Below, piece after piece: positions 7,511 through 36,194 of a stretch of DNA of 64,000 bases. The stretch covers positions 2,852,001 to 2,916,000 of the forward strand of contig NZ_JACCFO010000001.1 of the NCBI RefSeq assembly GCF_013410565.1, in the 5' to 3' direction. The position numbers and the translations under genes are program-made. Under the pieces are notes generated by a model, which did not search any database, was not told the origin of the DNA, and worked only from the letters and a program-made list of their open reading frames with translations. Each line of letters opens with the position of its first letter. The stretch's first letter is position 1. The stretch comes from Streptomonospora nanhaiensis (GTDB taxonomy: Bacteria > Actinomycetota > Actinomycetes > Streptosporangiales > Streptosporangiaceae).

Positions 7511-8803
7511 ATGGACGCCCCACGCTCCCCGGACGCGCCGGACACCTCCTGGATCCGCCACGCCATCTGGTGGCACGTCTACCCGCTGGGATTCTGCGGC
7601 GCCCCGGTCCGCCCGGCCGGTCCCGCGCCCGCGCCCCGGCTGCGCGCCCTGCTGGACTGGCTGGACTACGCCGTGGAGCTCGGCGTCAACGGGCTGCTGC
7701 TCGGGCCGGTCTTCCACTCCGCCACGCACGGCTACGACACGCTGGACCACTACCGGATCGACCCCCGCCTGGGCACGCTCGCGGACTTCGACGACCTCGT
7801 GGCGGCCTGCCGCGCCCGGGGCCTGCGCGTCGTCCTCGACGGGGTCTTCAGCCACGTGGGCGCCGGGCACCCCGCGCTGGCGCGCGCCCTGGCCGCCGGG
7901 CCCGGCAGCCCCGAGGCCGAGCTGTTCGACGTCGACTGGCAGGCCCCCGGCGGGCCGCGCCCGCGCGTGTTCGAGGGGCACGGGGAGCTGGTCCGCCTCG
8001 ACCACACCCGGCCGCGCACCGCCGACCTCGTCGCCGACGTGCTGGGGTACTGGCTGGAGCGCGGTGTCGACGGCTGGCGGCTGGACGCCGCCTACTCCGT
8101 CGACCCCCGCTTCTGGGCCGAGGTGTGCGGGCGGGTGCGCCGCGACCACCCGCGCGCGTGGTTCCTCGGCGAGGTCATCCACGGCGACTACGGCGCGTTC
8201 GTCGCGGAGTCGCGCCTGGACTCGGTCACCCAGTACGAGCTGTGGAAGGCCCTGTGGTCCAGCCTGGCCGAGCGCAACCTCTTCGAGCTGGACTGGGCGC
8301 TCCAGCGCCACAACCGGTTCCTGGACTCCTTCACGCCGACGACCTTCGTCGGCAACCACGACGTCACCCGCATCGCCAGCACCCTGGGCGGGGACGGTGC
8401 CGTGGCGGCGCCGGCCCTGCTCATGTGCGTCGGCGGGGTGCCCTGCGTCTACTACGGCGACGAGCAGGGGTTCACCGGAATCAAGGAGGAGCGCCTGGGC
8501 GGCGACGACGCCGTGCGGCCCGCGTTCCCCGGCTCCCCCGGCGAACTGGCGCCCTGGGGGCGCGGCGTGCACCGCGCCCACCGGGAGCTGATCGGCCTGC
8601 GCCGCAGGCACCCCTGGCTGGCCACCGCCGCCACCGAGGCGGTCGCCCTGGACAACACCCGCTACGTGTTCCGCGCGCACGGGCGGCACGGCGGTGCCCA
8701 CCTGGAGGTCGAGGCCGACATCGCCGCCGGGTGGCACGTGGCGATCCGCGGCCCCGCCGGCCACACGCTGTGGCGGCTGGACGCCGAGCCCGACCGGTCC
8801 TGA
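7511..8803 (+). CDS. GH13 alpha-amylase-family glycoside hydrolase
   Basis: 430 residues without a signal peptide, so probably cytoplasmic. The catalytic barrel begins at IWWHVYPLGF. It keeps all GH13 signatures: VVLDGVFSHVG (region I), DGWRLDAAY with the nucleophile Asp near 191, LGEVIHGDY with the acid/base Glu near 221, and FVGNHDVTR with the third Asp near 283. The short length and lack of extra starch-binding domains suggest action on small alpha-glucosides or maltodextrins rather than polymer; the exact substrate cannot be read from this. It follows the catalase terminator and is convergent with the monooxygenase remnant. Confidence 0.85.
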   Translation: MDAPRSPDAPDTSWIRHAIWWHVYPLGFCGAPVRPAGPAPAPRLRALLDWLDYAVELGVNGLLLGPVFHSATHGYDTLDHYRIDPRLGTLADFDDLVAACRARGLRVVLDGVFSHVGAGHPALARALAAGPGSPEAELFDVDWQAPGGPRPRVFEGHGELVRLDHTRPRTADLVADVLGYWLERGVDGWRLDAAYSVDPRFWAEVCGRVRRDHPRAWFLGEVIHGDYGAFVAESRLDSVTQYELWKALWSSLAERNLFELDWALQRHNRFLDSFTPTTFVGNHDVTRIASTLGGDGAVAAPALLMCVGGVPCVYYGDEQGFTGIKEERLGGDDAVRPAFPGSPGELAPWGRGVHRAHRELIGLRRRHPWLATAATEAVALDNTRYVFRAHGRHGGAHLEVEADIAAGWHVAIRGPAGHTLWRLDAEPDRS

Positions 8804-8851
8804 CGTGGACGCCGGTCCCCACGGGCCGCCGGCCGCGCGTCGTCCCCGCCG

Positions 8852-10049
8852 TCAGGGCCGGGGTGCGGGGCGGGGGTAGTCGGGCAGCTCGCCGGCGGTG
8901 GCGAAGGCGTCGGTGCTCTTCAGCAGCAGGCGGGTGAGCCGGGGTGAGGCGAACATCCGCTCGCGCAGCCAGAGGCCCATCGCGGTGGAGGGCGCCAGGA
9001 ACGTGCTGGCGTTGCCCGTGCGGGCCGGGGCGGCGTGCCGGCGCATCAGCGCGCCGCAACGGGCGAACGCGGCGGTGTGGTCGCCGTCGGCGGCGGCCAG
9101 TTCGCCGGCCAGCACGCAGGCTGCGCCGATCACGGCCAGGCCGGTGCCGAACCCGGCCAAGGTGTTGCCGAACGCGGCGTCGCCCAGCAGCGCGACGCGG
9201 CCGCGCGTGTAGGAGGGCATCTGCACGCGGCTGATGGAGTCGACGAACAGGTCGTCGGCGCGCAGCGCCCGCTCCACCAGGTCTGCCACGGGTTCGGCGG
9301 CGTTTGCGAACGCGGCGGCCAGGAGGCGCCGCCGGTCGGCGTCGTCGGCGCGCCCGGCGGGCGGGGGGTCGGCGGCGAACACGAACATGGCACTCGTTCC
9401 GCCGTAGACGGCGGTGCGGCCGGGCGTGCTGCGCATCAGCGCGACCAGGGGGCCACCGGGGGCGGGCGCGGGCGCGGGTAGGGGTGGGCCGTCCTCGGGC
9501 AGGGTGGCGATGGCGTAGTGGGCGCCCAGGTAGCGGACGTGGCGCTCCTCCGGGCCGAAGGCCAGGGCGCGGGTGCGGGAGTGGATGCCGTCGGCGCCCA
9601 CGACCAGGTCGAAGGTGTGCTCGGCGCCGCTGTCGAAGACGGCGCGCACACCGCCGGCCTCCTCGCGGAGCGCGGCGAGGGAGTCGCCGAAGCGGTAGTC
9701 GCAGTGGGGGGGCGGTGGCGGCGTGGAGGATGCGCACCAGGTCGCCCCGGACGATCTCCACGTCGCCGCCGGTGAACTCCGCGGGAATGCGGGCGCGCTC
9801 GCGGCCGCGGGCGTCGACCATGACGGTGTCGGTGCCCCCGGTCTGATGAGCGCGCACCTCCTCCAGCAGGCCCATGCGGCGCAACACGGCCAACTGCGTG
9901 GCCCCCTTGAAGTCGACGGCCTGGCCGCCGGGTCGCGGACCGGGGGCGCGCTCGACCACGGTGACACGGTGGCCGTAGCGGACGAGCCAGTGGGCGAGAG
10001 CGGGGCCGGCTATCCCAGCGCCGGAGATGAGGATGTTGAGGGAGCGCAC
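8852..10049 (-). pseudogene. FAD-dependent monooxygenase, frameshifted
   Basis: A PheA/TetX-like class A flavoprotein in two frames. The N-terminal part from the GTG at 10049 (GGAGG six bases upstream) has LNILISGAGIAGPALAHWL and continues to LVRILHAATAP. The rest, starting HCDYRFGDSL and including VVGADGIHSRTR, the DG motif, and VALLGDAAFGNTLAGFGTG for FAD binding, is in another frame to the stop at 8852. The switch is in a run of seven G (9706-9712 on the plus strand), where six would restore a 398-residue protein. Either a real mutation, a phase-variable tract or a sequencing error. It is divergent from a TetR repressor across a symmetrical operator, the usual arrangement for such enzymes. 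Confidence 0.85.
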
Positions 10050-10073
10050 GGCGCACCTCCGCGATAACGACAA

Positions 10074-10108
10074 TAGTGTCCACCAGAAACGGTTTCCAGT
10101 GGACACCA
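10074..10108. promoter_or_regulatory. TetR-type operator between monooxygenase and regulator
   Basis: A 35-bp near-palindrome: outer arms TAGTGTCCAC (10074-10083) and GTGGACACCA (10099-10108) match at nine of ten positions, and a perfect inner GAAACGGTTTC sits at the centre. A third related half-site, TGGTAGACAC, follows at 10117-10126. It covers the divergent promoters, so the TetR protein probably represses both genes. Confidence 0.7.
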
Positions 10109-10167
10109 TTAGTATCTGGTAGACACGGTTTTCGCAAGGCCGAACGGCACAGACGTGAGGAGCACCC

Positions 10168-10950
10168 ATGGCGCCCGACCACGGCGGTCCCCGGAAGCCG
10201 CCCGCCCCCGGCGACTCCCTCCCGGCGGCCGAGCGCACCGCCGGCGTGCTGTGGGACGATCCCGCGCAGCCGCGCCGGGGCCCCAAGCCCTCACTCAGCC
10301 GCGCCGCCGTCGTGGCGGCGGGGATCTCGCTGGCCGACGCCGAAGGGCTCGCGGCGCTGTCCATGCAGCGGGTGGCCGACGCCCTGGGCTACACGAAAAT
10401 GTCTCTGTACCGGTACGCGCCGGGGCGTGCGGAGCTGATCGCGCTCATGGTCGAGGAGGCGGTCGGCCCCCCGCCCGACCTGGCCGCCGAGCCGCCGGGG
10501 TGGCGCCCGCGCCTGCGCGCCTGGGCGTCGGCCCTGCTGCCGCGCCTGAGCGCGCACCCGTGGGCGGTAGAGGCGTCGACGGGCCCTCGGGTGATGGGAC
10601 CCAACGAACTGGCCTGGTTGGAGGCCGGGCTGGCGGCCATGCGGGGCACCGGCCTCACCGGGGCCGAACGGCTGGACGCGGCCGTGCTGCTGCTCGGGCA
10701 CGTGCGGGGCATCGCCCAGCAGGGCGCCGCCGCGCCGGGCGGGGACGGGGGTGCGGGCGCGGTCGAGGGCGAACTGGGCCGGGTGATGGCGGGGGTGCTG
10801 CGCCGCCGGGGCGGCGACTTCCCCGAGGCGGCGGCCGCCTTCGCCGAGGCGGCCGCCGGGACCGGTCAGGACCGCGCACTGGAGTTCGGCCTGGAGCGCA
10901 TTCTGGACGGACTGGCTGTGCTGGTGCGGGAGCGCACCGGCGAGGGGTGA
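10168..10950 (+). CDS. TetR-family transcriptional repressor
   Basis: 260 residues. The helix-turn-helix is at about 47-90 (LSRAAVVAAGISLADAEGLA, then MQRVADALGYTKMSLYRYAP), a clear TetR DNA-binding domain. The C-terminal half resembles TetR_C of the tetracycline-repressor type, with an alanine-rich tail. The N-terminal 45 residues are a proline-rich extension. ATG at 10168 with GAGGAG upstream. It faces the frameshifted FAD monooxygenase across a palindromic operator and probably senses that enzyme's substrate. Convergent with the following kinase-like gene. Confidence 0.9.
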   Translation: MAPDHGGPRKPPAPGDSLPAAERTAGVLWDDPAQPRRGPKPSLSRAAVVAAGISLADAEGLAALSMQRVADALGYTKMSLYRYAPGRAELIALMVEEAVGPPPDLAAEPPGWRPRLRAWASALLPRLSAHPWAVEASTGPRVMGPNELAWLEAGLAAMRGTGLTGAERLDAAVLLLGHVRGIAQQGAAAPGGDGGAGAVEGELGRVMAGVLRRRGGDFPEAAAAFAEAAAGTGQDRALEFGLERILDGLAVLVRERTGEG

Positions 10951-23495: not shown

Positions 23496-24020
23496 ATGAA
23501 CCTGAAGAAGGCGTCCCTCTCCGCCGCGGCGGTCGCCCTGGCCACCCCGCTGCTGTTCGCGCTGATGCCCGCCGGCACCGCCAACGCCCACGGCTACGTC
23601 TCCTCCCCGCCCAGCCGCCAGGCGCAGTGCGCGGCCGGGGTGGTGGAGTGCGGCGGGATCAAGTGGGAGCCGCAGAGCGTCGAGGGCCCCAAGGGCCTGA
23701 AGAGCTGCAGCGGCGGCAACGCCCGGTTCGCCGAACTCGACGACGACAGCCTGGGCTGGCAGGTCACCCCGGTGGGCCGCAGCGCCACCTTCACCTGGCG
23801 GCTGACCGCCCAGCACGCCACGTCCACGTGGGAGTACTACATCGGCGGCACCCGGATCGCCGTGTTCAACGACGGCGGCGCGCGGCCGCCGGCCACGGTC
23901 ACCCACAACGTCAACCTGAGCAACTACAGCGGGCGGCAGAAGATCCTGGCGGTGTGGAACGTCGCCGACACCGCGAACGCCTTCTACGCCTGCATCGACG
24001 TCAACGTCGGCGCGGCCTGA
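23496..24020 (+). CDS. secreted AA10 lytic polysaccharide monooxygenase
   Basis: 174 residues. The signal peptide ends at TANA, leaving His32 as the mature N-terminus (HGYVSSPPSRQAQC), the first ligand of the copper histidine brace; His107 in LTAQHATSTWEYYI is the second and Phe163 in NAFYACIDV the axial position. Four or more cysteines suit two disulphides. The mature enzyme is a single small AA10 domain with no carbohydrate-binding module, resembling chitin-active members (SCSGGNARFAELDD). It oxidatively cleaves crystalline chitin (possibly cellulose) outside the cell. ATG at 23496 with GAAGG upstream; a strong hairpin follows. Confidence 0.93.
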   Translation: MNLKKASLSAAAVALATPLLFALMPAGTANAHGYVSSPPSRQAQCAAGVVECGGIKWEPQSVEGPKGLKSCSGGNARFAELDDDSLGWQVTPVGRSATFTWRLTAQHATSTWEYYIGGTRIAVFNDGGARPPATVTHNVNLSNYSGRQKILAVWNVADTANAFYACIDVNVGAA

Positions 24021-24079: not shown

Positions 24080-24590
24080 GGCGGCGCCCGCATCGGGGAC
24101 CGGGCAGGGCCGGGCGGGCGCGCGGGCGGACCGCCGCGCCGCGCGCGAAAGCACCGCCCGGCACCGTACCGGGCCGGCGGATACCGCACCGGAATCCGTT
24201 TCCCGCCGTTTTCCGCCGTTTTCCGAAATCGCTGCAGCACGCCCGGTAAGGCAATTCCCGAGGCGCCCGGCGCCCGTTCCGGACTCTTTCCCGGAACGGT
24301 TTTCCGGCGTGCCGGCCGGGATTCCGCACGCCGTTCCCACGGCCGTTTCCGCCGCCGTTCCGCGACTGCTTCTGCGACGGTTTCCGAATCGTCTGCGCCG
24401 TTTCCGCGCGGACACCAGCGGCCAGGGCGGCCGGGCCCGCCCGGTGGGACCGGCCGCCACCTGCGCCACCTCCCGCCACCGCGCGGTTGCGCCGCGTGGT
24501 CCGCGCACCCCACTTGACGCCCCGCCGAGCCGTGGTGTTTGATGCCTCACACTCAACCGGGATCTTCACACGGATTCACACACCACCGGA
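24080..24590. other. intergenic tract rich in GTTTCCG-like repeats
   Basis: No gene is visible. From about 24190 to 24410 the motif (G)TTTCCG or GTTTTCCG recurs roughly ten times in irregular spacing on the plus strand, including CCGCCGTTTT twice in a row near 24206-24225. The composition is lower in GC than the neighbours. It separates the LPMO terminator from the operator of the next operon. Confidence 0.4.
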
Positions 24591-24606
24591 CTGTAAACGT
24601 TTACAG
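24591..24606. promoter_or_regulatory. LacI-type operator of the ADP-ribosylglycohydrolase operon
   Basis: Perfect 16-bp palindrome CTGTAAACGTTTACAG, 30 bp before the start codon of the LacI-family gene it probably autoregulates. The central CG and A/T-rich arms are typical for LacI-family repressors. A single copy is seen, so the whole downstream operon would be under this one control point. Confidence 0.8.
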
Positions 24607-24635
24607 TTTCCGTCCACGCAGCTCAGGGAGGGCGC

Positions 24636-25670
24636 ATGGCAAAGCCCGTCCCGACGATCACCACGATCGCCGAGGCCGCCGGTGTGTCGATCGCCTCGGT
24701 GTCGCGGGTCTTCAACGGCCAGCCCGTGCGCGAGTCGACCCGCCGCCGCGTGCTGGCCGAGGCGGAGCGCCTGGGCTACGTCCCCAACGCGGTCGCGCGG
24801 TCGCTGAAGTCCAACCGCACCGACCAGGTGGCGTTCGCCGTGGAGGACATCGGCAACCCCGTCTACCTGGCGATGCTGCGCGAGATCCAGCCGGTCCTGC
24901 GCGCGGACGGCTTCCGGCTGGTCGTCCACTCCACCGGCGGCGACCCCGGCGAGGAGATCGAGGTGCTGCGCGGGCTGGGCCGCCGGCACGCCGACGGCCT
25001 GATCATCAGCCCCATCCGGGTCACCCCCGAACTCCTCGGCGCCCTCGCCGAGACCGCCGCCCCCGTGGTCGTCATCGGCTCGGTGCCGCCCGGCACCCCC
25101 GTGGACAACGTGCGCGCCGACTCCCGCACCGGCATCCGCCTGGCCCTGCGCCACCTGTTCGGCACCGGGCGCCGCCGCATCGGGTTCGTCAACGGCCCGC
25201 TGGACACCGTGCCCGGCGGCCGCCGCGACTCCGCCTTCCGCGACGTGATGGCCGACGCCGGCAGCCCCGTGGACGACGGGCTCGTGCACGTCGGGGAGTT
25301 CCGCCGCGAGACCGGCGCCGAGGGCGCCCGCCGCCTGCTCGCCCACCCCGGCGGTCCGCCCGACGCGCTGCTGTGCGCCAACGACCTGATCGCCCTGGGC
25401 GCGCTGGACACGCTGCGCGCCGCCGGCCTGCGGGTGCCCGACGACGTCGCCGTGGTCGGCATGGACGACACCGAACTCGCGGCGGTGTCGTGGCCCACGC
25501 TGACCAGCGTCTGCCTCGGCTCGGCCGAGCGCGGCCGCCGCGCCGCCGGACTGCTGCTCGACCGCCTGCGCGGCGCTCCCCCCGCGGCACCGGCCGCCGA
25601 GGCCGCGCGGACCGTCACCGTGGCGCCGCGCCTGGTGGTGCGCGCCTCGACCACAGGAGGCGACCAATGA
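24636..25670 (+). CDS. LacI-family repressor of the transporter/glycohydrolase operon
   Basis: 344 residues. The N-terminal helix-turn-helix and hinge are intact (TTIAEAAGVSIASVSRVFNG, RRRVLAEAERLGYVPNAVAR), followed by a periplasmic-binding-protein-like sensor domain (VAFAVEDIGNPVYLAMLREI, PDALLCANDLIALGALDTL, VAVVGMDDTELAAVSWPTLT). It starts 30 bp after a 16-bp palindrome and its stop overlaps the ATG of the first permease (ATGA). It should release the operator when the imported sugar or glycoside, or a product, accumulates. Confidence 0.93.
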   Translation: MAKPVPTITTIAEAAGVSIASVSRVFNGQPVRESTRRRVLAEAERLGYVPNAVARSLKSNRTDQVAFAVEDIGNPVYLAMLREIQPVLRADGFRLVVHSTGGDPGEEIEVLRGLGRRHADGLIISPIRVTPELLGALAETAAPVVVIGSVPPGTPVDNVRADSRTGIRLALRHLFGTGRRRIGFVNGPLDTVPGGRRDSAFRDVMADAGSPVDDGLVHVGEFRRETGAEGARRLLAHPGGPPDALLCANDLIALGALDTLRAAGLRVPDDVAVVGMDDTELAAVSWPTLTSVCLGSAERGRRAAGLLLDRLRGAPPAAPAAEAARTVTVAPRLVVRASTTGGDQ

Positions 25671-26605
25671 CGCTCACCTCGGCGTCCCCACCCCCCGCCG
25701 AAGCGGCGCCGCCCCGGCCCCGCGCCCGCCCCCGGCGGCCCGACCGCTCGGCCTACGCGCTGCTGCTTCCGGCCCTGGTGCCGGTGGTGCTGTTCAGCAT
25801 CGCGCCCCTGGTCTACGGGATGTTCCTGGCGTTCACCGACGCCCGCGCCGGCCGCGACGTCGACACCTCGTTCGTGTTCCTGGAGAACTTCGGGCACCTG
25901 CTCGCCGACGTCCAGTTCTGGTCGTCGTTCCGGATCGGCCTGGTCTGGGCCGTCACCGTGACGCTGCTGCAGTACGCGGCGGGCATGGGGCTGGCGCTGC
26001 TGCTCAACCAGAACCTGCGGCTGCGCTGGCTGGCGCGCACACTGGCGCTGTTCCCGTGGGCCATGCCGCCGGTGATCGTCGGCCTGATGTGGCGGCTGGT
26101 CTACCACCCCGACGCCGGCGTCCTCAACGCCGCGCTCACCGACCTCGGGCTGATCTCGGAGAACATCGACTGGCTCAACGACTTCGGCTGGGCGCTGCCC
26201 GCCGTCGTGGTGGTGGGCGTGTGGACCGGCATGCCGCAGACCACCATCGTGCTGCTGGCCGGGCTGCAGAACGTCTCCCGGGACCTCGGCGAGGCGGCGC
26301 GGGTCGACGGCGCCGGGCCCTGGCGCCGCTTCACCGCCGTCACCCTGCCGCAGCTGCGCACCGTCACCGTGGCGATCACCTCGCTGAACTTCGTGTGGAA
26401 CATGAACGAGTTCGCGCTGGTGTACGTGCTCACCCAGGGCGGCCCCGGCGGGATGACGCGGCTGCCCATGCTCTACGCCTACGAGGAGGCGTTCCGCTAC
26501 GGGTTCTTCGGCTACGCCTCGGCGATGGGCGTGGCGATCGTGATCGTTGTCCTCGCGGTGCTCGGGTTCTACCTGCGCCGCCAGTTGAAGGAGGCCGAGG
26601 CATGA
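25667..26605 (+). CDS. sugar ABC transporter permease (MalF-like)
   Basis: 312 residues, six membrane spans after a proline/arginine-rich cytoplasmic start. The ATPase-docking EAA loop reads EAARVDGAGPWRRFTAVTLP. It belongs to the carbohydrate-uptake CUT1 family and should pair with the next permease. Translationally coupled to the LacI gene through a 4-nt overlap. No ATPase gene is in the cluster, so a shared multi-sugar ATPase (MsiK type) encoded elsewhere is likely to energise it. Confidence 0.93.
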   Translation: MTLTSASPPPAEAAPPRPRARPRRPDRSAYALLLPALVPVVLFSIAPLVYGMFLAFTDARAGRDVDTSFVFLENFGHLLADVQFWSSFRIGLVWAVTVTLLQYAAGMGLALLLNQNLRLRWLARTLALFPWAMPPVIVGLMWRLVYHPDAGVLNAALTDLGLISENIDWLNDFGWALPAVVVVGVWTGMPQTTIVLLAGLQNVSRDLGEAARVDGAGPWRRFTAVTLPQLRTVTVAITSLNFVWNMNEFALVYVLTQGGPGGMTRLPMLYAYEEAFRYGFFGYASAMGVAIVIVVLAVLGFYLRRQLKEAEA

Positions 26606-26657
26606 GGCGAGCCCGCACGTGCGCCGCGCCGCGGCGGCGACGGACAGGAGGCCCGCG

Positions 26658-27512
26658 ATGGCCGCGGTGACCGCGACCCGCGTGCGCCGGGCGGCGGCCC
26701 GCACCGGCCAGTACGCCGCGCTGCTGTGCTACCTGGTCTTCCTGGCGTTCCCCCTGGTGTGGCTGCTGTCCACGGCGCTGAAGACGCCGCAGGAGATGGC
26801 GCTGCTGGACCCCACGTGGATCCCGCTGGAGCCCACCCTGGCCAACTTCGCCGCCGCGTTCGGTGAGCAGGACCTGGTGGGCGCGGCCCGGCGCAGTCTG
26901 ACCGTGGCGGTGTGCTCGGCGGTGCTGACGGTGCTGCTCGCGCTGCCGGCCGCCTACGTGCTGGCGCGCTACCGCTCGGTGGTGAACCGGATCGCCATGA
27001 GCTGGGTGCTGGTCAGCCAGGTGTTCCCGTTCATCCTGGTGATCATCGCGCTGTTCATGATCCTGCGGCAGTTCGGGCTGGTGAACTCCCTGGTGGGACT
27101 GGTGCTGGTGCACGCCACCTGGTGCCTGCCGTTCGTGCTGTGGATGCTGCGGGGCTACCTGCGCGGCATCCCGCGGGTGCTGGAGGAGGCCGCGGCGGTC
27201 GACGGCGCGGGCCGCTGGCGCACGCTGGTGTCGGTGGTGGCCCCGCTGGCGGCGCCGGGCGTGGCGGCCGCGCTGATGTTCGGGTTCATCTCGTCGTGGA
27301 ACGAGTTTTTGTTCGCGCTGATCCTGCTGAAGGACCCCGGGGTGCAGACGCTGCCGCTGGTGCTGGTGGCGTTCACCGGGCCCGAGGGCGTGGCGCGGCT
27401 GGGTCCGCTGGCGGCGGCGTCGCTGATGGCGGCCGTGCCCAGCCTGGTGTTCTTCGCGTTCATCCAGCGCCGGTTCCGCGGCGGCCTGGTCGACGGGGCG
27501 GTGAAGGGGTGA
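26658..27512 (+). CDS. sugar ABC transporter permease (MalG-like)
   Basis: 284 residues from the ATG at 26658 with CAGGAGG upstream, 52 nt after the first permease. Six spans and the EAA loop EEAAAVDGAGRWRTLVSVVA; the SSWNEFLFALILLKD stretch is typical of the second CUT1 permease. The start of the frame at 26619 is rejected because it lacks a binding site. Confidence 0.93.
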   Translation: MAAVTATRVRRAAARTGQYAALLCYLVFLAFPLVWLLSTALKTPQEMALLDPTWIPLEPTLANFAAAFGEQDLVGAARRSLTVAVCSAVLTVLLALPAAYVLARYRSVVNRIAMSWVLVSQVFPFILVIIALFMILRQFGLVNSLVGLVLVHATWCLPFVLWMLRGYLRGIPRVLEEAAAVDGAGRWRTLVSVVAPLAAPGVAAALMFGFISSWNEFLFALILLKDPGVQTLPLVLVAFTGPEGVARLGPLAAASLMAAVPSLVFFAFIQRRFRGGLVDGAVKG

Positions 27513-27517
27513 CCGCG

Positions 27518-28825
27518 ATGAGCGGAGGAACGGTGCGCCGGCGGCCGGGCGCGGCCCTGGTGGCCGCGGGCCTGGCGACGGCGGTGCTGGTGACCGGCTG
27601 CGCCCAGGGCGACCCGGGTGAGGAGCCGATGCGCTACCTGAGCCTGGCCTGGCAGACCCAGTCGATCGAGGCCAACCGGCGGCTGGTCGAGGAGTGGAAC
27701 CGGGAGCACCCCGAGGCGCCCGTGGAGTACGTGCAGGGCAGCTGGGACAACGTCAACGACCAGCTGGTCACGGCGTTCGAGGGCGGCGACCCGCCCGACA
27801 TCATCCACAACGAGTCGCCCACGCTGACCAGCTTCGAGTACCGCAACTACCTGGCCGACCTCGGCGACCACCTGCCCGCGGACGTGCGCGCCGACATCGG
27901 CGACGCCGCCTGGGACACCGTCACCATCGACGGCCGCGTGGTGGGCGTGCCGCTGCTCCAGGAGCCGCAGGTGCTGATCGCCAACGCCGACATCCTGCGG
28001 GAGTCGGGGGTGCGCGTGCCCACGGTCGAGGAGCCCTGGACCTGGGACGAGTTCGAGCAGGCGAGCCGGGAGCTGACCGTGCCCGGCGAGCGGCACGCGG
28101 TGGCCTGGCCGCTGAGCAGCCCCACCAACCGGGTGCTCAACCTGGCGCTGAACTTCGGCGGGGAGTTCTTCCGCGTCGCCGAGGACGGGGCGGTCACCGT
28201 CGAGGTGGGGCCCGAGGAGCGCGAGGTGCTGGAGCGCATCCACCGCCAGCTCTACACCGACCGCACGGCCGACCCGCAGGCGGTGGGCATGGGCGGCTCC
28301 GACCCGCTGCCCGCGTTCTTCGCCGGGCAGTACGCCATGGTCCAGGGCGGGGTCTACACCCGCCAGCAGGTGGTGGAGCAGGCGCCCGACGGGTTCGACT
28401 GGGTGATGCTGCCGCCGCTGGTGGGCGACGTCCCCGACCAGGGCGCCACCTCCCAGACGCTGTCGGTGGCCGCCGACAGCCCGCACGAGGCGGACGCGGC
28501 CGCGTTCGTGGCGTTCATGGCCGAGCCCGACAACCAGGTGGACCTCGCGCTGGGCGACTGGCTGACGCCCACCAGCCAGGAGGCGCTGGCATCACCCGAG
28601 CTGACCACGGAGGCCAACGAGTGGGACGTCGCCGTCCACGCGGCGGGCAGCCTCCGCTCGGCGCCCTACCTCCAGGTGCCCGGCTTCGACGAGTTCAAGA
28701 ACCGGGTGTCCGAGCCGCTTCTCCAGGAGTACTTCGGCGACCGCATCAGCCTGGACGAACTGGCGCGGCGCATGGAGGAGGAGGGCAACGCGGTGATGGC
28801 GAGGTACACGACCGATGAGGGGTGA
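27518..28825 (+). CDS. extracellular solute-binding lipoprotein of the glycohydrolase operon
   Basis: 435 residues from the ATG at 27518 (AAGGGG upstream); a GTG at 27509 overlapping the previous stop is an alternative. A lipobox LVTGC places the protein on the outer face of the membrane. The mature part is a family-1 sugar-binding protein (WDNVNDQLVTAFEGGDPPDI, NRVLNLALNFGGEFF, ADAAAFVAFMAEPDNQVDLA). It captures the ligand for the two permeases. It is unrelated in detail to the binding protein at 50094, so the two systems likely take different ligands. The next gene overlaps it by 11 nt. Confidence 0.92.
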   Translation: MSGGTVRRRPGAALVAAGLATAVLVTGCAQGDPGEEPMRYLSLAWQTQSIEANRRLVEEWNREHPEAPVEYVQGSWDNVNDQLVTAFEGGDPPDIIHNESPTLTSFEYRNYLADLGDHLPADVRADIGDAAWDTVTIDGRVVGVPLLQEPQVLIANADILRESGVRVPTVEEPWTWDEFEQASRELTVPGERHAVAWPLSSPTNRVLNLALNFGGEFFRVAEDGAVTVEVGPEEREVLERIHRQLYTDRTADPQAVGMGGSDPLPAFFAGQYAMVQGGVYTRQQVVEQAPDGFDWVMLPPLVGDVPDQGATSQTLSVAADSPHEADAAAFVAFMAEPDNQVDLALGDWLTPTSQEALASPELTTEANEWDVAVHAAGSLRSAPYLQVPGFDEFKNRVSEPLLQEYFGDRISLDELARRMEEEGNAVMARYTTDEG

Positions 28826-29900
28826 GGACACGGGCCGCGCCGGCGGCGCGGCCGAGGGCCCGGACGGCTCCCTTCGGGACCGGGCGCGCGGCGCCCTGCT
28901 GGGCCTGGCCTGCGGCGACGCGCTGGGGCGGCCGGCCGAGAACATGACGCCCGAGGCCATCGCCGAGCGGTGGGGGCGGCTGACCGAACTGGCCGTCGAC
29001 GAGCACGGCGTGGCGGCGGGCACCGACGACACCGAGTACTCGGTGTTCATCGGGCTGCTGCTGGCCGAGCACGGCCGGGGCCTGCGGCCCGAGCACGTGG
29101 TGGCGGCCTACGAGCGCGACGTGCTGACCATCGAGGGGCCCATGCGCGGCGCGGGGTTCTCCGAACTGGGCACCGTCCAGGCGCTGCGGCGGGGGCTGGC
29201 GCCGCCCCACACCGGGCGGCGGCACCTGCACGGCTGGTCCGACGGCCTGGCGATGCGGGCGGCGCCCTACGGGGTGTTCGCGGCGGGCGACCCGGCGCAG
29301 GCCGCGCGGCTGATCGAACTCGAAGGGCAGGTCAGCCACGCCGGCGAGGGCCTGCTGGGCGGCCGCGCGGTGGCGGCGGGCGTGGCGGCGGCGATCGCCG
29401 GGGCCGCGCCGCACGAGGTCGCCGCGGCGGCGCGGGAGCAGGTCCCGGCCGACTCCTGGACGGGACGCGCCCTGGCCCACGCGGTGCGCGCCGCCGACGA
29501 GGCGCCCGACACCGCCGCGCTGGGCGCGGCGCTGCACGCGGCCGTGGTGCCGGCGCACTACCCGTGGACCGACCTGGCGCCCGAGGCGGTCGCGCTGGCG
29601 TTCGGTGCCTACCTCGCCGCGGGCGGCGAGGTCGAGGAGGCCGTGGTGACGGCCGCCAACATGGGCCGCGACGCCGACACCACGGCGGCGATCGCCGGAG
29701 CCCTCGCGGGGGCCGGGCGCGGCGCCTCGCGGATCCCGCGGCGGTGGGCGGCGGCGATCGGGCCGGTGACGGGCAGCTGCCTGCCGTCGGTCGCGGGGCG
29801 CCGCGTCACCGAGGTCGCCGACCTGCTGGTGGCGGCCGGCGCGGCCGACCGGGCCGGGGCGGCGGGCCGGGGCGGCGCCGCGCGGGGGGCGCACGACTGA
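28815..29900 (+). CDS. ADP-ribosylglycohydrolase family protein A
   Basis: 361 residues, all-helical DraG/ARH fold. The metal-binding residues are canonical: GLACGDALGRPAEN, then TDDTE at 70-74, and GRDADTTAAIAGALAGA near 286-290. Family members use two Mg/Mn ions to hydrolyse ADP-ribosyl or other ribosyl N- or O-glycosidic bonds. No signal peptide, so it acts in the cytoplasm on an imported or internal substrate. It overlaps the binding-protein gene by 11 nt and is first of four relatives, which argues for a catabolic role tied to the transporter. Confidence 0.9.
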   Translation: MRGEDTGRAGGAAEGPDGSLRDRARGALLGLACGDALGRPAENMTPEAIAERWGRLTELAVDEHGVAAGTDDTEYSVFIGLLLAEHGRGLRPEHVVAAYERDVLTIEGPMRGAGFSELGTVQALRRGLAPPHTGRRHLHGWSDGLAMRAAPYGVFAAGDPAQAARLIELEGQVSHAGEGLLGGRAVAAGVAAAIAGAAPHEVAAAAREQVPADSWTGRALAHAVRAADEAPDTAALGAALHAAVVPAHYPWTDLAPEAVALAFGAYLAAGGEVEEAVVTAANMGRDADTTAAIAGALAGAGRGASRIPRRWAAAIGPVTGSCLPSVAGRRVTEVADLLVAAGAADRAGAAGRGGAARGAHD

Positions 29901-30000
29901 TGACCCGCGCCGCCGGCCGCGGGGCCGGCGGCGCGCGCACGAGCGGTAGAGGCGACCGGGCCGCGCCCGTCGGCGGGCCCGGCGCAGGGAGGGGACGGCA

Positions 30001-31131
30001 GTGACAACGGGGGACGATCCGGCACGCAGAACCGGTGCCGGCACGGCGGGCGCGGGTCCGGGGCCGCAGGCGTCCGGCGCGCTCGGCGACCGGATCCGCG
30101 GGGCGTTCGCGGGCCTGGCGATCGGGGACGCGGTGGGCTGGCCGGCCGGGCGGCACCGGTTCGCGCTGCTCGCGCCGTGGACGCGGCGGCTGGGCCGGGA
30201 GCTGGACCTGTTCGCCGAGGAGCACCGCGTCACGACGCTGCCGGTGCCCTTCGCGCTGAACCAGCCGGTGGCGCCGCTGGCCATGGGGCCCTCCGACGAC
30301 GCCGAGTGGCTGGCGTGGACGGCCCTGGGCATCGCGACCGACCGCGCCGAGGCGTTCGCCGCCCTGGCCGGCCGCGACGACATCCGGGCGCGGATCTCGG
30401 TGCGCACGGCGCTGGACAACCTCGCCCGGGGGCTGGGCCCGCCGCACAGCGGACACGACAACCCGCACTTCTTCGACGACGCGGCGGCGGTGCGCGCGGT
30501 CGCCTTCGGCGCGGCCCGGCCCGGGCGGCCCGAGGCCGCCGCCGACGACGCCCGCGCCGACGCCGAGGTCACCAACTCCGGCGACGGCGTCAGCGCCGCC
30601 CGCGCCATGGCCGCGGCCGTCGCGGCGGCGGTGGCCGGCGCCGGACCGGCCGAGGCGCTGGCCACCGGCACGGCGCAGCTGCCGCCGGGCAGCGCGATCG
30701 GCGCGGTCGTGGGCGAGGCGCTGGCCGAACTGGGGCGGGCCGCGCCCGGGCAGCCGTTCGACCTGCTTCCGGCCCTCGAAGCGGTCTGCTGCGACCACGT
30801 CTACTCCTACGGCACGGCGGCGCAGGCCACGCTGGCCGCCGCGTTCGCGCTGACCGGCGCCGCCCAAGGCGCGCTGGGCCCGGCCGTGAGCGCGGCGGCG
30901 TGCCTGGCGCCGCTGGCGGACTCCGCGCCCGCCCTCACGGGCGCGCTCGCCGGGGCGCTGGGCGGCTACTCCGCCGTCGCGCCCGCCTGGCGGGCGCGCG
31001 CGGCCCCGCTGGCCGGGTGCTGCCTGCCCGAACTGGCCGGCACCGACCTCATCGGCGTCGCCGACGCGCTCGCCGCCTCGGCCCGGAGTGACAACGACGA
31101 CCGCGGCGCGGGTGCGCGCCGCGACCCGTGA
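30001..31131 (+). CDS. ADP-ribosylglycohydrolase family protein B, divergent active site
   Basis: 376 residues, GTG start with GGAGGGG upstream, 100 nt after gene A. The opening GAFAGLAIGDAVGWPAGRH is family-like, but the first metal motif is SDDAE near residue 98 instead of TDDT. The C-terminal motif aligned with GRDADT reads PLADSAP, so one of two aspartates is lost. HSGHDNPHFFDDAAAVRAVA and TNSGDGVSAARAMAAAVAA resemble the substrate-side region of the family. It may be an enzyme with altered metal use, or a non-catalytic partner. Its stop overlaps a possible GTG start of gene C. Confidence 0.85.
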   Translation: MTTGDDPARRTGAGTAGAGPGPQASGALGDRIRGAFAGLAIGDAVGWPAGRHRFALLAPWTRRLGRELDLFAEEHRVTTLPVPFALNQPVAPLAMGPSDDAEWLAWTALGIATDRAEAFAALAGRDDIRARISVRTALDNLARGLGPPHSGHDNPHFFDDAAAVRAVAFGAARPGRPEAAADDARADAEVTNSGDGVSAARAMAAAVAAAVAGAGPAEALATGTAQLPPGSAIGAVVGEALAELGRAAPGQPFDLLPALEAVCCDHVYSYGTAAQATLAAAFALTGAAQGALGPAVSAAACLAPLADSAPALTGALAGALGGYSAVAPAWRARAAPLAGCCLPELAGTDLIGVADALAASARSDNDDRGAGARRDP

Positions 31132-31142
31132 AGGAGCCATCC

Positions 31143-32291
31143 ATGCTGACCCGCCTGCAGGACAAGGCCGTCGGCGCGATCGCCGGTGCCGCCGTGGGCG
31201 ACGCGCTCGGCGGCGCGACCGAAGGCTGGACCGTCGAGCAGATCCACCGGCGCTACGGCGGCTACGTGGAGGGAGTCGTCGGCCCCTTCAACCCCGACTG
31301 GCGCAACGCCCGGCCCATCGCGCCCTACCACAAGGGCGACGGCCACATCACCGACGACACCCTGATGACCCAGGCGCTGATCCGGGTCTACGCCCGGGCC
31401 GAGCGGCACCTGGACGCCTACGCCGCCGCCGAGCTGCTGGTGCCGGAGATGATGGGGCAGCGGCGGTGGGTGCCCGAACTGGAGGAGGAGGCGCTGCTGC
31501 TGCAGCGGGTCTTCCTCGCCGAGAAGTGGCTGGTGGCGCGGCTGCACTACGGGCACGTGGATCCGCGCGAGGCGGGCACCGGCAACATCGTCAACTGCGG
31601 CGCGGCGATGTACATGGCGCCGGTGGGCGTGGTCAACGCCGGCGACCCGGAGGGCGCCTACGCCGAGGCGATCGACCTGGCGGGGGCGCACCAGTCCAGC
31701 TACGGCCGGGAGGCGGCCGGGGTGTTCGCGGCGGCGGTGGCGGCGGCCATGGCGCCGGGCGCCGACGCCGAGGCGGTGGTGGCGGCCGCGCTGGGGCTGG
31801 CCAAGGACGGCACGCGCGCCGCGATCGAGGCCGTGTGCGAGCGGGCGCGCGGCATCGACGGGTGGCGCGGGTCGGCCCCGGCGCTGCGCGAGGCCATGGC
31901 GCCGTTCGACACGGTCGCCGACACCTACCGCGACCAAGGGCTGGGCGCCCGCAGGCCCAGCCGGGTGCACGCCATCGAGGAACTGCCGATGGCGCTGGCG
32001 TTCCTGCTGATCGCTGGGGGCGACTACCGCGAGACCGTGCTGGGCGGGGTGAACTACGGGCGCGACGCCGACTCCATCGCCAGCATGGGCGGCGCCATCG
32101 CCGGGGCCCTGGGCGGCCGCGACGCGGTGCCCGGCGAGTGGCGCACCCAGGTCGCCGAGGCCAGCCGCACCGACATCGAGACCCCCGGCCTGGAGCTGGC
32201 GGAGGTCGCGCTGCGCATCCGCGCGGCCGACCGCCGCCGCCGCGAGGCGGCCGACGCCGCCCTGGCCGCCCTGGAGGCCCCGGCCGGCTGA
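31143..32291 (+). CDS. ADP-ribosylglycohydrolase family protein C
   Basis: 382 residues from the ATG at 31143, which has AAGGAG six bases upstream; the GTG at 31128 is less likely. Complete motifs: GAAVGDALGGATEGWT, GHITDDTLMTQAL with TDDT near 70-73, GTGNIVNCGAAMYMAPVGVV, and VNYGRDADSIASMGGAIAGA near 308. It differs from A by a longer lid region after TDDT (VPEMMGQRRWVPELEEEALL). Likely a cytoplasmic hydrolase of a ribosyl or related glycosidic bond, co-translated with its neighbours. Confidence 0.9.
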   Translation: MLTRLQDKAVGAIAGAAVGDALGGATEGWTVEQIHRRYGGYVEGVVGPFNPDWRNARPIAPYHKGDGHITDDTLMTQALIRVYARAERHLDAYAAAELLVPEMMGQRRWVPELEEEALLLQRVFLAEKWLVARLHYGHVDPREAGTGNIVNCGAAMYMAPVGVVNAGDPEGAYAEAIDLAGAHQSSYGREAAGVFAAAVAAAMAPGADAEAVVAAALGLAKDGTRAAIEAVCERARGIDGWRGSAPALREAMAPFDTVADTYRDQGLGARRPSRVHAIEELPMALAFLLIAGGDYRETVLGGVNYGRDADSIASMGGAIAGALGGRDAVPGEWRTQVAEASRTDIETPGLELAEVALRIRAADRRRREAADAALAALEAPAG

Positions 32292-32660
32292 GGGAGGCGC
32301 GGGTGCGGCGCGGTGGCCAGGCGCGGCCGGTGCGGCTCTCCGGCACCGGCCCGGCGTTGGGGCGCCGGTTCACCGGGCAGCCGTCGCGCGATCGCGTGCG
32401 CGCCGGCAGGCCACCCGTCCCGCCGGCCGCACCCGGCACGGCCCTCGGCGCGCCGCGGAACCCGGCGCGGCACCGATTGGGACGGCGCGAAGCCCCGTCC
32501 ACGGTCGCGGGCAAACCCGGTGCCGGGCACGCGCGGGGCCGCGCCGCGCGTTGGCCGGTCAACGGCCGCCGCCGCGCGGCCCGTCGGCGGCCGGCTCCGC
32601 CGGAGCCGCCCCGCCGGAGCCGGTCCGTCCGACACAACGACCACTGGAGGAACCCGCCCC
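32292..32660. other. gap between glycohydrolases C and D with overlapping hairpins
   Basis: No gene is visible. At 32591-32623 the sequence CCGGCTCCG can pair either with an adjacent CGGAGCC (32600-32606 region) or with CGGAGCCGG at 32615-32623, giving two mutually exclusive stems 38 nt before gene D. This could be a partial terminator or an attenuator, or just GC-rich chance. Confidence 0.35.
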
Positions 32661-34037
32661 ATGCGCGTGACCTGGATCCATTCCGAGGACCTCATCGGGC
32701 ACGAACTGCGCCAAGCCGATCAGGACGGCCGCGACCCCGGCGCCGTGGCCCGGGTGCGGGAGCGCTGGCGGGCCGCCGGCGGGCACGACGCGCCGCCGCT
32801 GGCGGGCGCGTCGCCGGAGCCGGCCCCGCCCGAACTGCGGGCGCTGGCCGAGGACCTGCTGGACGAACTGTCCGCCCTTCCCTCGCCGCTGGCCGGGGAC
32901 GAGCCCACCGACCTGCCCGACATCATCGCGGCCTGCCCGGAGTGGCCGGTGGGTCCCGTGGCCGCGCCGGGCGCCGACCTCGCCGACCGGCTACTCGGCG
33001 CCTGGACCGGCCGGGCGGCCGGGTGCGTGCTCGGCAAGCCGGTCGAGAAGATCCCCCGCGCCGGTATCCGGGAGATCGCCGAGGCCACCGGGAACTGGCC
33101 GGTGCGGGGCTGGTTCACGGCCAAGGGCCTGCCCGACGACGTCGCGGCGCGCTGGCCGTGGAACCGGCGCAGCGCCCCCACCAGCCTGGCCGAGACCCTC
33201 GACGGCACGCCCGAGGACGACGACCTCAACTTCCCCATGCTCGGCCTGGCCCTGCTCGAACGCCACGGATCCCGGTTCACCAGCGAGGACGTCGCCCAGA
33301 TCTGGCTGGACGAACTTCCGCCCGGCCGGATCTTCACCGCCGAGCGGGTGGCCGTGCGCAACCTGCTCACGGGGGTCGTGCCGCCGCACACCGCAACCGT
33401 GCGCAACCCCTTCCGGGAGTGGATCGGCGCGCTGATCCGCGCCGACGTGTTCGGGTGGGCCAACCCGGGCGATCCGGGCACGGCCGCGATGATGGCGCAC
33501 CGCGACGCCGTGGTCAGCCACACCGGCAACGGGGTCTACGGCGCGATGTTCGCCGCCGCGCTGGCCGCGATGGCCCCGGTGGCCGACTCCCCCGCCGCCG
33601 CCCTGGAGACCGCGCTGCGGGTGGTGCCGCCGCGCTCGCGGCTGGCCGCCGCCGTCCGCGACGCGATGGTGCTCGCGGCGGGCGCCGACGACTTCGAGGA
33701 GGTGGTCGACGGCCTCTACGCGGCGCACGGCCACCTGCACTGGGTGCACGCGGTGAACAACGCGGCGGTGATCGCCGCCGCGCTGGTCCACGGCGCCGGG
33801 GACTTCGCCGCGTCCATCACCCGGGCGGTGTCGGCCGGGTGGGACACCGACTCGGTGGGCGCCACGGTGGGGTCGGCGGCCGGGGCGCTGACGGGCGCCG
33901 CGGCCCTGCCGGAGTACTGGACCGCCCCGCTGCGGGGCCGCGTGGCCAGCAGCCTCACCGGCTTCGGCGGGATCACCTTCGCCGAACTGACCGCCCGCAC
34001 CCTGGCCCTGCGCACCGACCCCGCCGCGATGCCGTAG
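32661..34037 (+). CDS. ADP-ribosylglycohydrolase family protein D with N-terminal extension
   Basis: 458 residues, ATG at 32661 with GGAGG ten bases upstream. Residues 1-105 form an extension beginning MRVTWIHSEDLIGHELRQA, seen as a conserved start in one subgroup of this family. The glycohydrolase domain follows: GAWTGRAAGCVLGKPVEKIP, an unusual TPEDDDLNFPML in place of TDDT near residue 185, GNGVYGAMFAAALAAM, and VSAGWDTDSVGATVGSAAGA near 395. Acidic metal ligands are kept, though the motif differs. It is the last gene of the LacI/ABC cluster, 369 nt after gene C. Confidence 0.88.
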   Translation: MRVTWIHSEDLIGHELRQADQDGRDPGAVARVRERWRAAGGHDAPPLAGASPEPAPPELRALAEDLLDELSALPSPLAGDEPTDLPDIIAACPEWPVGPVAAPGADLADRLLGAWTGRAAGCVLGKPVEKIPRAGIREIAEATGNWPVRGWFTAKGLPDDVAARWPWNRRSAPTSLAETLDGTPEDDDLNFPMLGLALLERHGSRFTSEDVAQIWLDELPPGRIFTAERVAVRNLLTGVVPPHTATVRNPFREWIGALIRADVFGWANPGDPGTAAMMAHRDAVVSHTGNGVYGAMFAAALAAMAPVADSPAAALETALRVVPPRSRLAAAVRDAMVLAAGADDFEEVVDGLYAAHGHLHWVHAVNNAAVIAAALVHGAGDFAASITRAVSAGWDTDSVGATVGSAAGALTGAAALPEYWTAPLRGRVASSLTGFGGITFAELTARTLALRTDPAAMP

Positions 34038-34522: not shown

Positions 34523-35164
34523 TCAGGCCGGCACGGCCGGCGCCTCCTCTGCCGCTTCCTCGCCGCCGCGGGCGGCCGGGCGGCGCCACACGGTGCCCCG
34601 GCGCTCGTGTTCGAGGATCTGCTCGGCCAGCAGCGCCGCCTGGGCGCCGTAGAGGCGCTCCACCAGCCACAGGCCGAGGTCGATCCCCGAGGTCACACCG
34701 CCGCAGGTGACCAGGTCGCCGTCGTCCACGACCCGGCCCGCCACCACCTCGGCGCCCTGGGCGGCGAGGTCCTGCGTTGCGGCGTGGTGCGTGGTGCAGG
34801 GGCGCCCGGCGGTGAGGCCGGCGGCCGACAGCAGCAGGGTGCCGGTGCACACCCCCGCCATGATCAGGCCGGGCCGCGCCGCCTCGGCGAGCGCCCGGGG
34901 CAGCGCGCCCGACCGGACCTGGCGGTCCACGGCCGAGCCCGCGCCGTAGCCGCCGCCGGGGACCACGACGAGGTCGGCCCGCGCGGGGTCCAGGGCCGCG
35001 CCGGCCCGCACCTCCATGCCGAAGGACGTGGTGACGGTTCCGGGTCCGCCCAGGGTGACGAACGTCGTGCGGACGTCGTCCACGACGTCCAGCGCCCCCA
35101 GCGGACCGACGAGGTCCTGGTCCTCCACTCCGTCGTAGAGCACGGCCTGCACGCGCAGGGTCAT
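34523..35164 (-). CDS. DJ-1/PfpI family protein
   Basis: 213 residues from the ATG at 35164, with GGGGAGG upstream. A single DJ-1/PfpI domain: VVVPGGGYGAGSAV, the nucleophile-elbow cysteine in MAGVCTGTLLLSAAGLTAGR near residue 102, and CGGVTSGIDLGLWLVERLYG. Such proteins include isonitrile hydratases and stress-related deglycase-like proteins. Divergent from a full-length GlxA-type regulator that carries the same domain fused to a DNA-binding part, with a 103-bp shared promoter region, so it may be that regulator's target. Confidence 0.88.
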   Translation of the reverse strand: MTLRVQAVLYDGVEDQDLVGPLGALDVVDDVRTTFVTLGGPGTVTTSFGMEVRAGAALDPARADLVVVPGGGYGAGSAVDRQVRSGALPRALAEAARPGLIMAGVCTGTLLLSAAGLTAGRPCTTHHAATQDLAAQGAEVVAGRVVDDGDLVTCGGVTSGIDLGLWLVERLYGAQAALLAEQILEHERRGTVWRRPAARGGEEAAEEAPAVPA

Positions 35165-35267: not shown

Positions 35268-36194
35268 ATGCACGTGGTCGCCGTACTCGCCTTCGAGGGG
35301 ATCGTCGGCTTCGACCTGACCATCCCGTGCCAGGTGTTCTCGTTCGCGCCCGGCTACGAGGTGCGGGTCTGCGCTGACACCGACATCGCCGCGACCGCCG
35401 CCGGCCGCGAGACCTTCCGGCTGTCGGCGCCCTACGGCCTGGCCGAGGCCCGCCGCGCCGACACGGTGGTCGTGCCGGGCGGCGACCCCGCGAACCCGCC
35501 GCCGGAGGAGGTCTTGGGGCTCCTGCGCGAGACCGTGGACCGCGGCGCGCGCGTGGCCTCGATCTGCACCGGGGCGTTCGTGCTGGCGGCGGCCGGCCTG
35601 CTCGACGGCCGCCCGGCCGCCACCCACTGGCTGCTGGCCGACGATTTGGCCCGCGCCCACCCGCGCGTGCGGGTGGACCCCTCGGTCCTGTTCGTGGACG
35701 ACGGCCAGATCCTGACCTCGGCGGGGGTGGCCTCCGGCCTCGACCTGTGCCTGCACATGGTGCGGCGCGACCGCGGCGCGGCGGCCGCCGCCGACACCGG
35801 GCGCATGATCGTGATGCCGCCGCAGCGCCCCGGCGGCCAGGCGCAGTTCATCGAGCACCGCGACCCGGTGGACGACACCGCCGACCTGGGCGCCACGCTG
35901 CGCTGGATGGAGGACCACCTGGACGAGCCGCTGACCGTGGCCGACATCGCCGCCCACGCGGCGGTGAGCCCCCGCCACCTGTCGCGGCGGTTCCGCGCGC
36001 AGACGGGGACCACGCCGCTGCGCTGGCTGCTCGACCGCCGGCTGCAGCGGGCGCGGGAGCTGCTGGAGACCACCGGCCTGCCGGTGGCGCGGATCGCGCG
36101 GAGCACGGGGTTCGGCACCGTGGAGACGCTGCGCTACCACTTCGGCCGGCAGGTGGGCGCAACCCCCACCGCCTACCGTGCCGCGTTCCAGTGA
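35268..36194 (+). CDS. GlxA-family transcriptional regulator (DJ-1/PfpI + AraC)
   Basis: 308 residues, complete. The N-terminal DJ-1/PfpI-like domain starts VVAVLAFEGIVGFDLTIPCQ and has the cysteine in ASICTGAFVLAAAGLLDGR near 100. The C-terminal AraC domain has two helix-turn-helix units (LTVADIAAHAAVSPRHLSRR, VARIARSTGFGTVETLRYHF). This is the intact form of the remnant at 1733-2281. It probably controls the divergent DJ-1 gene in response to a small molecule bound by its N-terminal domain. Confidence 0.92.
   Translation: MHVVAVLAFEGIVGFDLTIPCQVFSFAPGYEVRVCADTDIAATAAGRETFRLSAPYGLAEARRADTVVVPGGDPANPPPEEVLGLLRETVDRGARVASICTGAFVLAAAGLLDGRPAATHWLLADDLARAHPRVRVDPSVLFVDDGQILTSAGVASGLDLCLHMVRRDRGAAAAADTGRMIVMPPQRPGGQAQFIEHRDPVDDTADLGATLRWMEDHLDEPLTVADIAAHAAVSPRHLSRRFRAQTGTTPLRWLLDRRLQRARELLETTGLPVARIARSTGFGTVETLRYHFGRQVGATPTAYRAAFQ

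Follow-up and report, generated by a model that had tools for sequence, protein, structure and literature searches.

Homologues of the ADP-ribosylglycohydrolases (ARHs) are usually annotated as erasers of ADP-ribosylation. In the rus ribose-utilisation loci of Bacteroides, an ARH-type protein reportedly shares one locus with a ribokinase and a nucleoside hydrolase, uptake is said to be of the SusCD type, and to our knowledge there is no coenzyme A (CoA)-transferase or lyase. In E. coli, the yegTUV operon, controlled by a single repressor, combines a transporter, an ARH and a PfkB kinase. The pertinent passages of two papers list SCO2028-2031 of S. coelicolor (PMC9411070) or SCO2028-2030 (PMC5087735) as uncharacterised DraG/ARH homologues, the second taking the number of putative hydrolases in Streptomyces as a sign of lively ADP-ribosylation metabolism, and neither these passages nor the corresponding part of PMC13036486 give SCO2028-2031 a catabolic role. 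Here, we describe an operon in a 64,000-nucleotide (nt) stretch of the Streptomonospora nanhaiensis genome (positions 2,852,001-2,916,000 of 6.28 Mb; the window), in which four ARH paralogues, A1 to A4, follow a LacI-family repressor and genes of a sugar importer. We propose, with a probability of roughly 60%, that this LacI-controlled operon serves to take up a ribose-containing glycoside and to break it down step by step, a carboxylic part being passed on to CoA-ester cleavage.

Judged by gene order and location, S. coelicolor SCO2028-SCO2031 appear to correspond to the A1-A4 block, with A1 to A4 assigned to the SCO numbers by order. In S. griseus (locus L123), the order A1-A4-kinase-CoA-transferase-HpcH lies between glutamate synthase and lgt/trpA-trpB-trpC; SCO2038 belongs to the S. 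coelicolor trp locus according to the relevant part of PMC5036795, whose sole mention of SCO2028, in a cloning passage, apparently means SCO2038. The window differs from the SCO2028-2031 block in its adjoining LacI and importer genes and in having no CoA-transferase or HpcH gene there. It also departs from the yegTUV arrangement of an ARH next to a nucleoside-type major facilitator superfamily (MFS) transporter and a PfkB kinase, since it has an ATP-binding cassette (ABC) importer and no kinase in the operon, whereas yegTUV has the MFS transporter, a single ARH, a GntR repressor and no CoA enzymes. The operator and the eight genes, all on the plus strand and assigned with Pfam, are as follows (aa, amino acids; bp, base pairs):

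24590-24607, no strand: putative LacI operator, a perfect 18-bp palindrome, ACTGTAAACGTTTACAGT (from the sequence and orthologous loci)
24636-25670, plus: LacI-family repressor, 344 aa (PF00356 and PF13377)
25667-26605, plus: ABC permease 1 (P1), 312 aa (PF00528; top NCBIfam model UgpA, below cut-off)
26658-27512, plus: ABC permease 2 (P2), 284 aa (PF00528; top NCBIfam model GlcU, below cut-off)
27518-28825, plus: solute-binding protein (SBP), 435 aa (PF01547/PF13416)
28815-29900, plus: ARH paralogue A1, 361 aa; TDDTE, RDADT and Glu flap retained (PF03747, 182 bits)
30001-31131, plus: ARH paralogue A2, 376 aa, GTG start; metal site degenerate (PF03747, 94 bits)
31143-32291, plus: ARH paralogue A3, 382 aa; TDDT, RDADS and Glu flap retained (PF03747, 166 bits)
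32661-34037, plus: ARH paralogue A4, 458 aa; EDDD, DTDS and Glu flap retained (PF03747, 163 bits)

LacI and P1 overlap by 4 nt and SBP and A1 by 11 nt, and the gaps are 52 nt (P1-P2), 5 nt (P2-SBP), 100 nt (A1-A2) and 11 nt (A2-A3). Between A3 and A4 lie 369 nt when A4 starts at ATG 32661, the start that aligns with its relatives; A4 has an N-terminal extension of about 110 aa, its ARH domain match beginning at residue 113. A search for sigma-70-type promoters found none, and there was one terminator-like site, against 1.7 in shuffles. An SBP_bac_1 binding protein with two BPD_transp_1 permeases makes the importer a sugar ABC importer of the CUT1 type; the SBP has a lipobox-like VTGC near its start (read by eye) and its best PDB match by sequence is Lmo0181 (E 5e-20). 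There is no ATPase gene in the operon. Two ATPases elsewhere in the genome show 59% identity to a UgpC query, one of them (L165:6021-7229) with no other ABC genes adjoining on its strand, and an ATPase encoded elsewhere would energise the importer.

The operon carries a conserved putative operator, as judged from sequence. Its 14-bp core, TGTAAACGTTTACA, occurs at a single site in the 6.28-Mb genome at 0-1 mismatch, with no further copies elsewhere at ≤1 mismatch. With at most one mismatch, the core stands upstream of LacI in 52/61 orthologous loci tested, compared with 14/1600 random 310-bp windows from the same loci, some of which may contain the operator itself. An earlier note on this DNA had named the eight genes, their families and their single strand correctly, and its view of one regulated gene cluster is borne out; its perfect operator is indeed a perfect palindrome but of 18 rather than 16 bp, and its description of the spacing as mostly overlaps or 2-100 nt fits most junctions but not A3-A4.

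The cluster is conserved. A scan for A3 orthologues found at least 579 loci encoding relatives, of which the best 80, all actinobacteria by title genus, were taken; unless stated otherwise, counts refer to the 64 with at least 7.5 kb on both flanks (16 with short flanks were set aside), genes being called by a custom script, absences of A1 and A2 rechecked by tblastn, and co-occurrence counted without regard to shared descent. Besides A3 itself (the query, 64), the calls gave A4 in 64 loci, LacI, P1, P2 and SBP in 52 each, A1 in 50, A2 in 49, a PfkB kinase in 48, a family III CoA-transferase (CoAT) in 45, an HpcH-type lyase in 44 and a TIM-barrel/FGE protein in 14. The earlier remark that no kinase or ATPase gene is present holds for the operon, but 48/64 relatives have the PfkB kinase in the cluster. 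After tblastn corrections at three loci (one match being 166 aa long), A1 and A2 occur together in 51/64 and never apart. The neighbourhood search for gene order that the earlier note had proposed found the order retained across several actinobacterial families; the full series LacI-P1-P2-SBP-A1-A2-A3-A4-kinase-CoAT-HpcH is present in 18/64, one of the 18 also having the TIM-barrel protein. Neighbouring genes overlap by a median of 4 nt at A2-A3, A3-A4, A4-kinase and CoAT-HpcH, and 71/80 loci contain no called gene outside twelve classes within the cluster, the extra genes of the other nine being identified only in part.

In 13/80 loci, whose titles point to Streptomyces or close relatives, LacI and ABC genes are missing beside the ARH block, and the neighbours are the same by gene length; these neighbours were identified in one locus, that of S. 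griseus. Relatives of A2 were found in 36/149 nearby genomes at E ≤ 0.001, the window's genome counted, and a 396-genome sample of the phylum gave A3 in 10 genomes (E ≤ 1e-60), with A4 adjoining in 10/10, and A4-type matches in 15. A second, more distant cluster type within the same family (L046, L053, L054 and L055) has an A1-like/A2-like ARH pair with LacI and ABC genes, and no A3 match was found in these four loci.

In the relatives, A4 is followed by the kinase, the CoAT and an HpcH/HpaI-type lyase, none of which is in the window's operon. By sequence, the lyase is closest in the PDB to acyl-CoA and malyl-CoA lyases, and the CoAT to formyl-CoA, CaiB/BaiF-type, benzylsuccinate and succinate-HMG (3-hydroxy-3-methylglutarate) CoA-transferases. 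The continuation of the relatives' clusters into genes for a CoA-transferase and a CoA-ester lyase makes a carboxylic part of the ligand probable; going by the enzyme families, malate-, citramalate- or HMG-like acids would be candidates for it. Itaconate degradation (Rip or Ict-Ich-Ccl) uses a family III CoA-transferase and an HpcH-type lyase as well; the cluster differs in that its NCBIfam scores are far under the cut-offs (the best model for the lyase is RipC_Ccl, at 153 and 159 of 375 bits) and in that no hydratase class is found among the cluster genes. The window's genome does encode a CoAT (71% identity to a cluster CoAT) adjoining a lyase (53%) at 5.03 Mb, 2.15 Mb away, with genes for a GntR regulator and a TRAP-type permease alongside. 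Elsewhere in the same genome (L164:6788-11540, about 6.05 Mb), a GntP-type permease, a CoA-transferase and an open reading frame with HpcH and LysR domains form a gene set that is perhaps a paralogous acid pathway.

The distant CoAT goes with the cluster across the family. We compared 33 genomes: out of 36 positives for A2, the 17 family members whose match had an E-value of 1e-59 or better, and out of 113 negatives, the 16 that came first in the list. A CoAT with at least 67% identity to that of the window's genome is present in 17/17 cluster-bearing genomes (its own included) and in 1/16 cluster-free ones (Fisher 1.5e-8, with no correction for descent); the sole cluster-free carrier has 69% identity and another cluster-free genome reaches 58%. 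Within the genus, the figures are 2/2 and 0/4. As to the kinase, 3/3 actinobacterial cluster kinases scanned pass the ribokinase model TIGR02152 (304.3, 316.8 and 300.5; cut-off 299.65), as does the window genome's distant ribokinase (304.3), and none of the kinases scored reaches another ribokinase model (cut-off 341).

The four ARH paralogues all pass the curated PF03747 cut-off of 26.2 bits and fall into four separate groups of the tree with support of 100/99 to 100/100, which rules out recent tandem duplication, as the earlier note had held. The ARH active site, comprising [TE]DD, DxD[TS] and a Glu flap, is present in A1, A3 and A4. Its motifs are retained in 60/60 aligned members of A1, 80/81 of A3 and 76/76 of A4, and the Glu flap in 57/57, 78/78 and 75/75, respectively, of those with a residue there. 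A2 lacks this site: the DD is retained, but the first Asp of DxD is gone in 63/63 aligned proteins and the Glu-flap residue in 51/51 with a residue there (12 rows being gapped). The motif letters given earlier for A2, SDDAE/LADS, were read correctly but denote a degenerate site, not merely a subtype. The predicted model of A2 is of good quality by its own scores (predicted local distance difference test (pLDDT) 81, predicted template-modelling score 0.86), and most of the 50 Foldseek matches listed for it are ARH3, DraG and their kin. A2 is thus an ARH relative by sequence and predicted fold, not by active site. Since A2 is never seen without A1 in the 64 loci, we propose that it acts as a partner of A1. 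In Streptomyces spiroverticillatus (L127, about 7973-10240), A1 and A2 form one 756-aa reading frame, which would fit a joint function.

Outside the operon, the genome has just one other PF03747 site, a VWA-ARH protein 2.3 Mb away (L163:5716-7899, about 530.7 kb), with a family III CoA-transferase gene immediately upstream. ARH proteins of about 690-700 aa were seen at L136:13002-15071, L138:13021-15120 and L143:12082-14184; in L136 and L143, about 390 residues C-terminal to the ARH domain are without any Pfam match. In DraG, the adenosine-binding residues are Tyr212 and an ExxA motif, according to the relevant section of PMC7050489.

A TIM-barrel protein whose C-terminal domain is of the FGE type and the A1+A2 pair nearly exclude each other: 12 loci have the TIM-barrel protein only, 49 the A1+A2 pair only, two both and one neither (Fisher 3.5e-10). 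By title, the 12 belong to Kribbella, Nocardioides and Microbacteriaceae, and so may represent few independent events; two loci outside the 64, L039 and L048, carry the protein as well as the pair. The TIM-barrel gene is called as two pieces in L108. Fusions of the protein were seen with the kinase (L113) and with an esterase (L130), and in L113 and L125 the TIM-barrel gene is followed by one for an esterase. A1 and A2 seem to be an optional pair that the TIM-barrel protein replaces, which suggests alternative ways of handling the same portion of the ligand, perhaps a portion that bears an ester. With a mean pLDDT of 58 for the predicted model, and mostly TIM-barrel glycosidases at TM-scores below 0.5 among the 50 Foldseek matches listed of 1526, we accept the broad fold alone for this protein. 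A search of the 396 phylum genomes gave no match to it, but had no positive control and is uninformative.

Beyond the 64 loci, ARH genes recur alongside sugar ABC genes and a kinase (ribokinase or PfkB) in Agrobacterium, Mycolicibacterium (LacI, an A4-like ARH, ABC genes and ribokinase), Deinococcus (LacI, ABC genes, two ARHs and ribokinase) and Subdoligranulum (ABC genes, PfkB and two ARHs). Four rhizobial plasmid regions combine LacI and ABC genes with an A3-like ARH and UgpC, and three of them also have a second, A4-like ARH; in the tree, the A3-like ARHs form a long branch within the A3 group and the second ARHs stand beside A4, a placement to be taken with caution. In the archaeon Halostella, an A4-like ARH adjoins a PnrA-like transporter, nucleoside hydrolases and PfkB. 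A Sphingopyxis plasmid carries a ribokinase, a TIM-barrel protein, a CoA-transferase and a protein resembling GH127, a furanosidase family, with a CoA-ester lyase across the record start; its kinase scores 259.8, below the TIGR02152 cut-off, and tblastn found no A1-A4 match in the Sphingopyxis stretches. Other plasmid matches to the GH127-like protein are below 60% identity (about 25-27% among the rows listed), and GH127 standing in for the ARHs is therefore a single case. In the window itself, an LPMO_10 lytic polysaccharide mono-oxygenase gene lies upstream of the operon (23496-24020, plus), and downstream are two divergent genes for a DJ-1/PfpI protein (34523-35164, minus) and a DJ-1/AraC (GlxA-like) regulator (35268-36194, plus).

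The mechanism that we infer would begin with the CUT1-type importer bringing in a ribose-containing glycoside. In the cell, the ARH-fold enzymes would act as glycosidases cutting ribofuranosyl bonds, with the core cuts falling to A3 and A4 and another linkage or decoration to the linked pair of A1 and A2, in which A2 would probably be the non-canonical partner. A ribokinase would then phosphorylate the ribose, a family III CoA-transferase would activate the carboxylic aglycone or acyl group, and an HpcH-type lyase would split the CoA ester. Context gives good support to the catabolic reading; support is fair for the ribose link and moderate for the carboxylic part of the ligand. The earlier idea of an imported glycoside dismantled by several hydrolases is still the best reading, although the CoA enzymes, the optional nature of A1+A2 and the degeneracy of A2 had been missed; the ribose link suggested then is supported by the cluster kinases, 3/3 of those scanned passing the ribokinase cut-off, and by the Halostella ARH beside nucleoside hydrolases.

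Several observations weigh against this proposal. First, the ligand class and the enzyme activities are predictions from gene context. Second, the CoAT and HpcH proteins of both the relatives and the window's genome fall below every NCBIfam equivalog cut-off. Third, the window genome's own ribokinase is also found in 4/4 cluster-free members of the genus, which rules out a tie between ribokinase and cluster at that level, and the Kribbella and Nocardioides cluster kinases are only 43-50% identical to the reference. Fourth, the cluster includes the kinase but lacks a CoAT in 16 full-flank loci (15 Nonomuraea, 1 Streptomyces), and 11/12 full-flank loci without nearby LacI and ABC genes still carry CoAT and HpcH; since the 12 are Streptomyces or close relatives by title, their substrate may be internal or enter through a different transporter. 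Finally, tblastn found neither CoAT nor HpcH in the four rhizobial regions, where one has a full kinase gene and another a 72-aa kinase match on the opposite strand.

The operon could instead salvage ADP-ribose, NAD or nucleoside-like compounds in the manner of yegTUV, as the earlier note had considered. The Halostella neighbourhood, with its PnrA-like transporter, nucleoside hydrolases and PfkB, would fit, as would E. coli yegT-yegU-yegV, whose repressor GgaR responds to ADP-glucose according to the pertinent part of PMC10819704. The closest matches of the SBP and permeases are of sugar or oligosaccharide (CUT1) rather than nucleoside types, however, nothing recognisable as a nucleoside hydrolase or Nudix gene was seen in the cluster (with the extra genes of nine loci identified only in part), and the relatives' CoA-transferase and lyase have no evident role in salvage, so that we consider this unlikely. 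It is also quite unlikely, in our view, that the ARHs serve to undo ADP-ribosylation of macromolecules in their own cell and share the regulation of a sugar importer only by coincidence. Such a role would suit the family name and fold, the intact metal motifs of A1, A3 and A4, and the way in which print lists the S. coelicolor homologues (in the passages of PMC9411070 and PMC5087735 cited above). Moreover, another S. coelicolor ARH, SCO5809, acts on ADP-ribosylated RNA ends, as described in the relevant part of PMC11833690, and some bacterial ARHs are therefore true ADP-ribose hydrolases. Yet the cluster is conserved together with importer, kinase and CoA enzymes and, in the 71/80 loci above, with no called gene of another class, and SCO2028 and SCO2030 had no activity on U-alpha-ADPr, the one substrate reported in the corresponding passage of PMC13036486. 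Cleavage of another furanoside (e.g., an arabino- or galactofuranoside), with the ribose link incidental, would agree with the absence of a kinase from the window's operon and with the Sphingopyxis GH127-like protein beside ribokinase, TIM-barrel protein, CoA-transferase and lyase without A1-A4, but is similarly improbable given that the relatives' kinases pass the ribokinase model, that Sphingopyxis offers a single locus, whose family scores are weak and whose kinase falls below the cut-off, and that characterised ARHs cut ADP-ribosyl bonds (in the part of PMC7050489 that concerns them).

Under uptake and breakdown of a ribose-containing glycoside, which we prefer, a more specific picture can be put forward tentatively, as one more likely wrong than right: the cluster ARHs would be catabolic pentofuranosidases and not erasers, A1 and A2 would form a heteromer in which A2 has lost the metal chemistry of its own site, and the substrate would be an undescribed ribofuranoside bearing a dicarboxylic hydroxy acid and used by many actinobacteria, including Streptomyces. 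Among the papers listed by searches of the open-licence literature, several lists being confined to their first entries, we noticed none giving these ARHs a catabolic link, most subscription papers lying outside that scope, and phrase searches for a ribosyl-malate or ribosyl-citramalate gave no hit. If the four S. coelicolor homologues are catabolic glycosidases, the view that they reflect a lively ADP-ribosylation metabolism changes. The proposal, if true, would give enzymes of unassigned job a testable role, and their neighbours, the ribokinase, CoA-transferase and lyase, would offer a direct route to the substrate.

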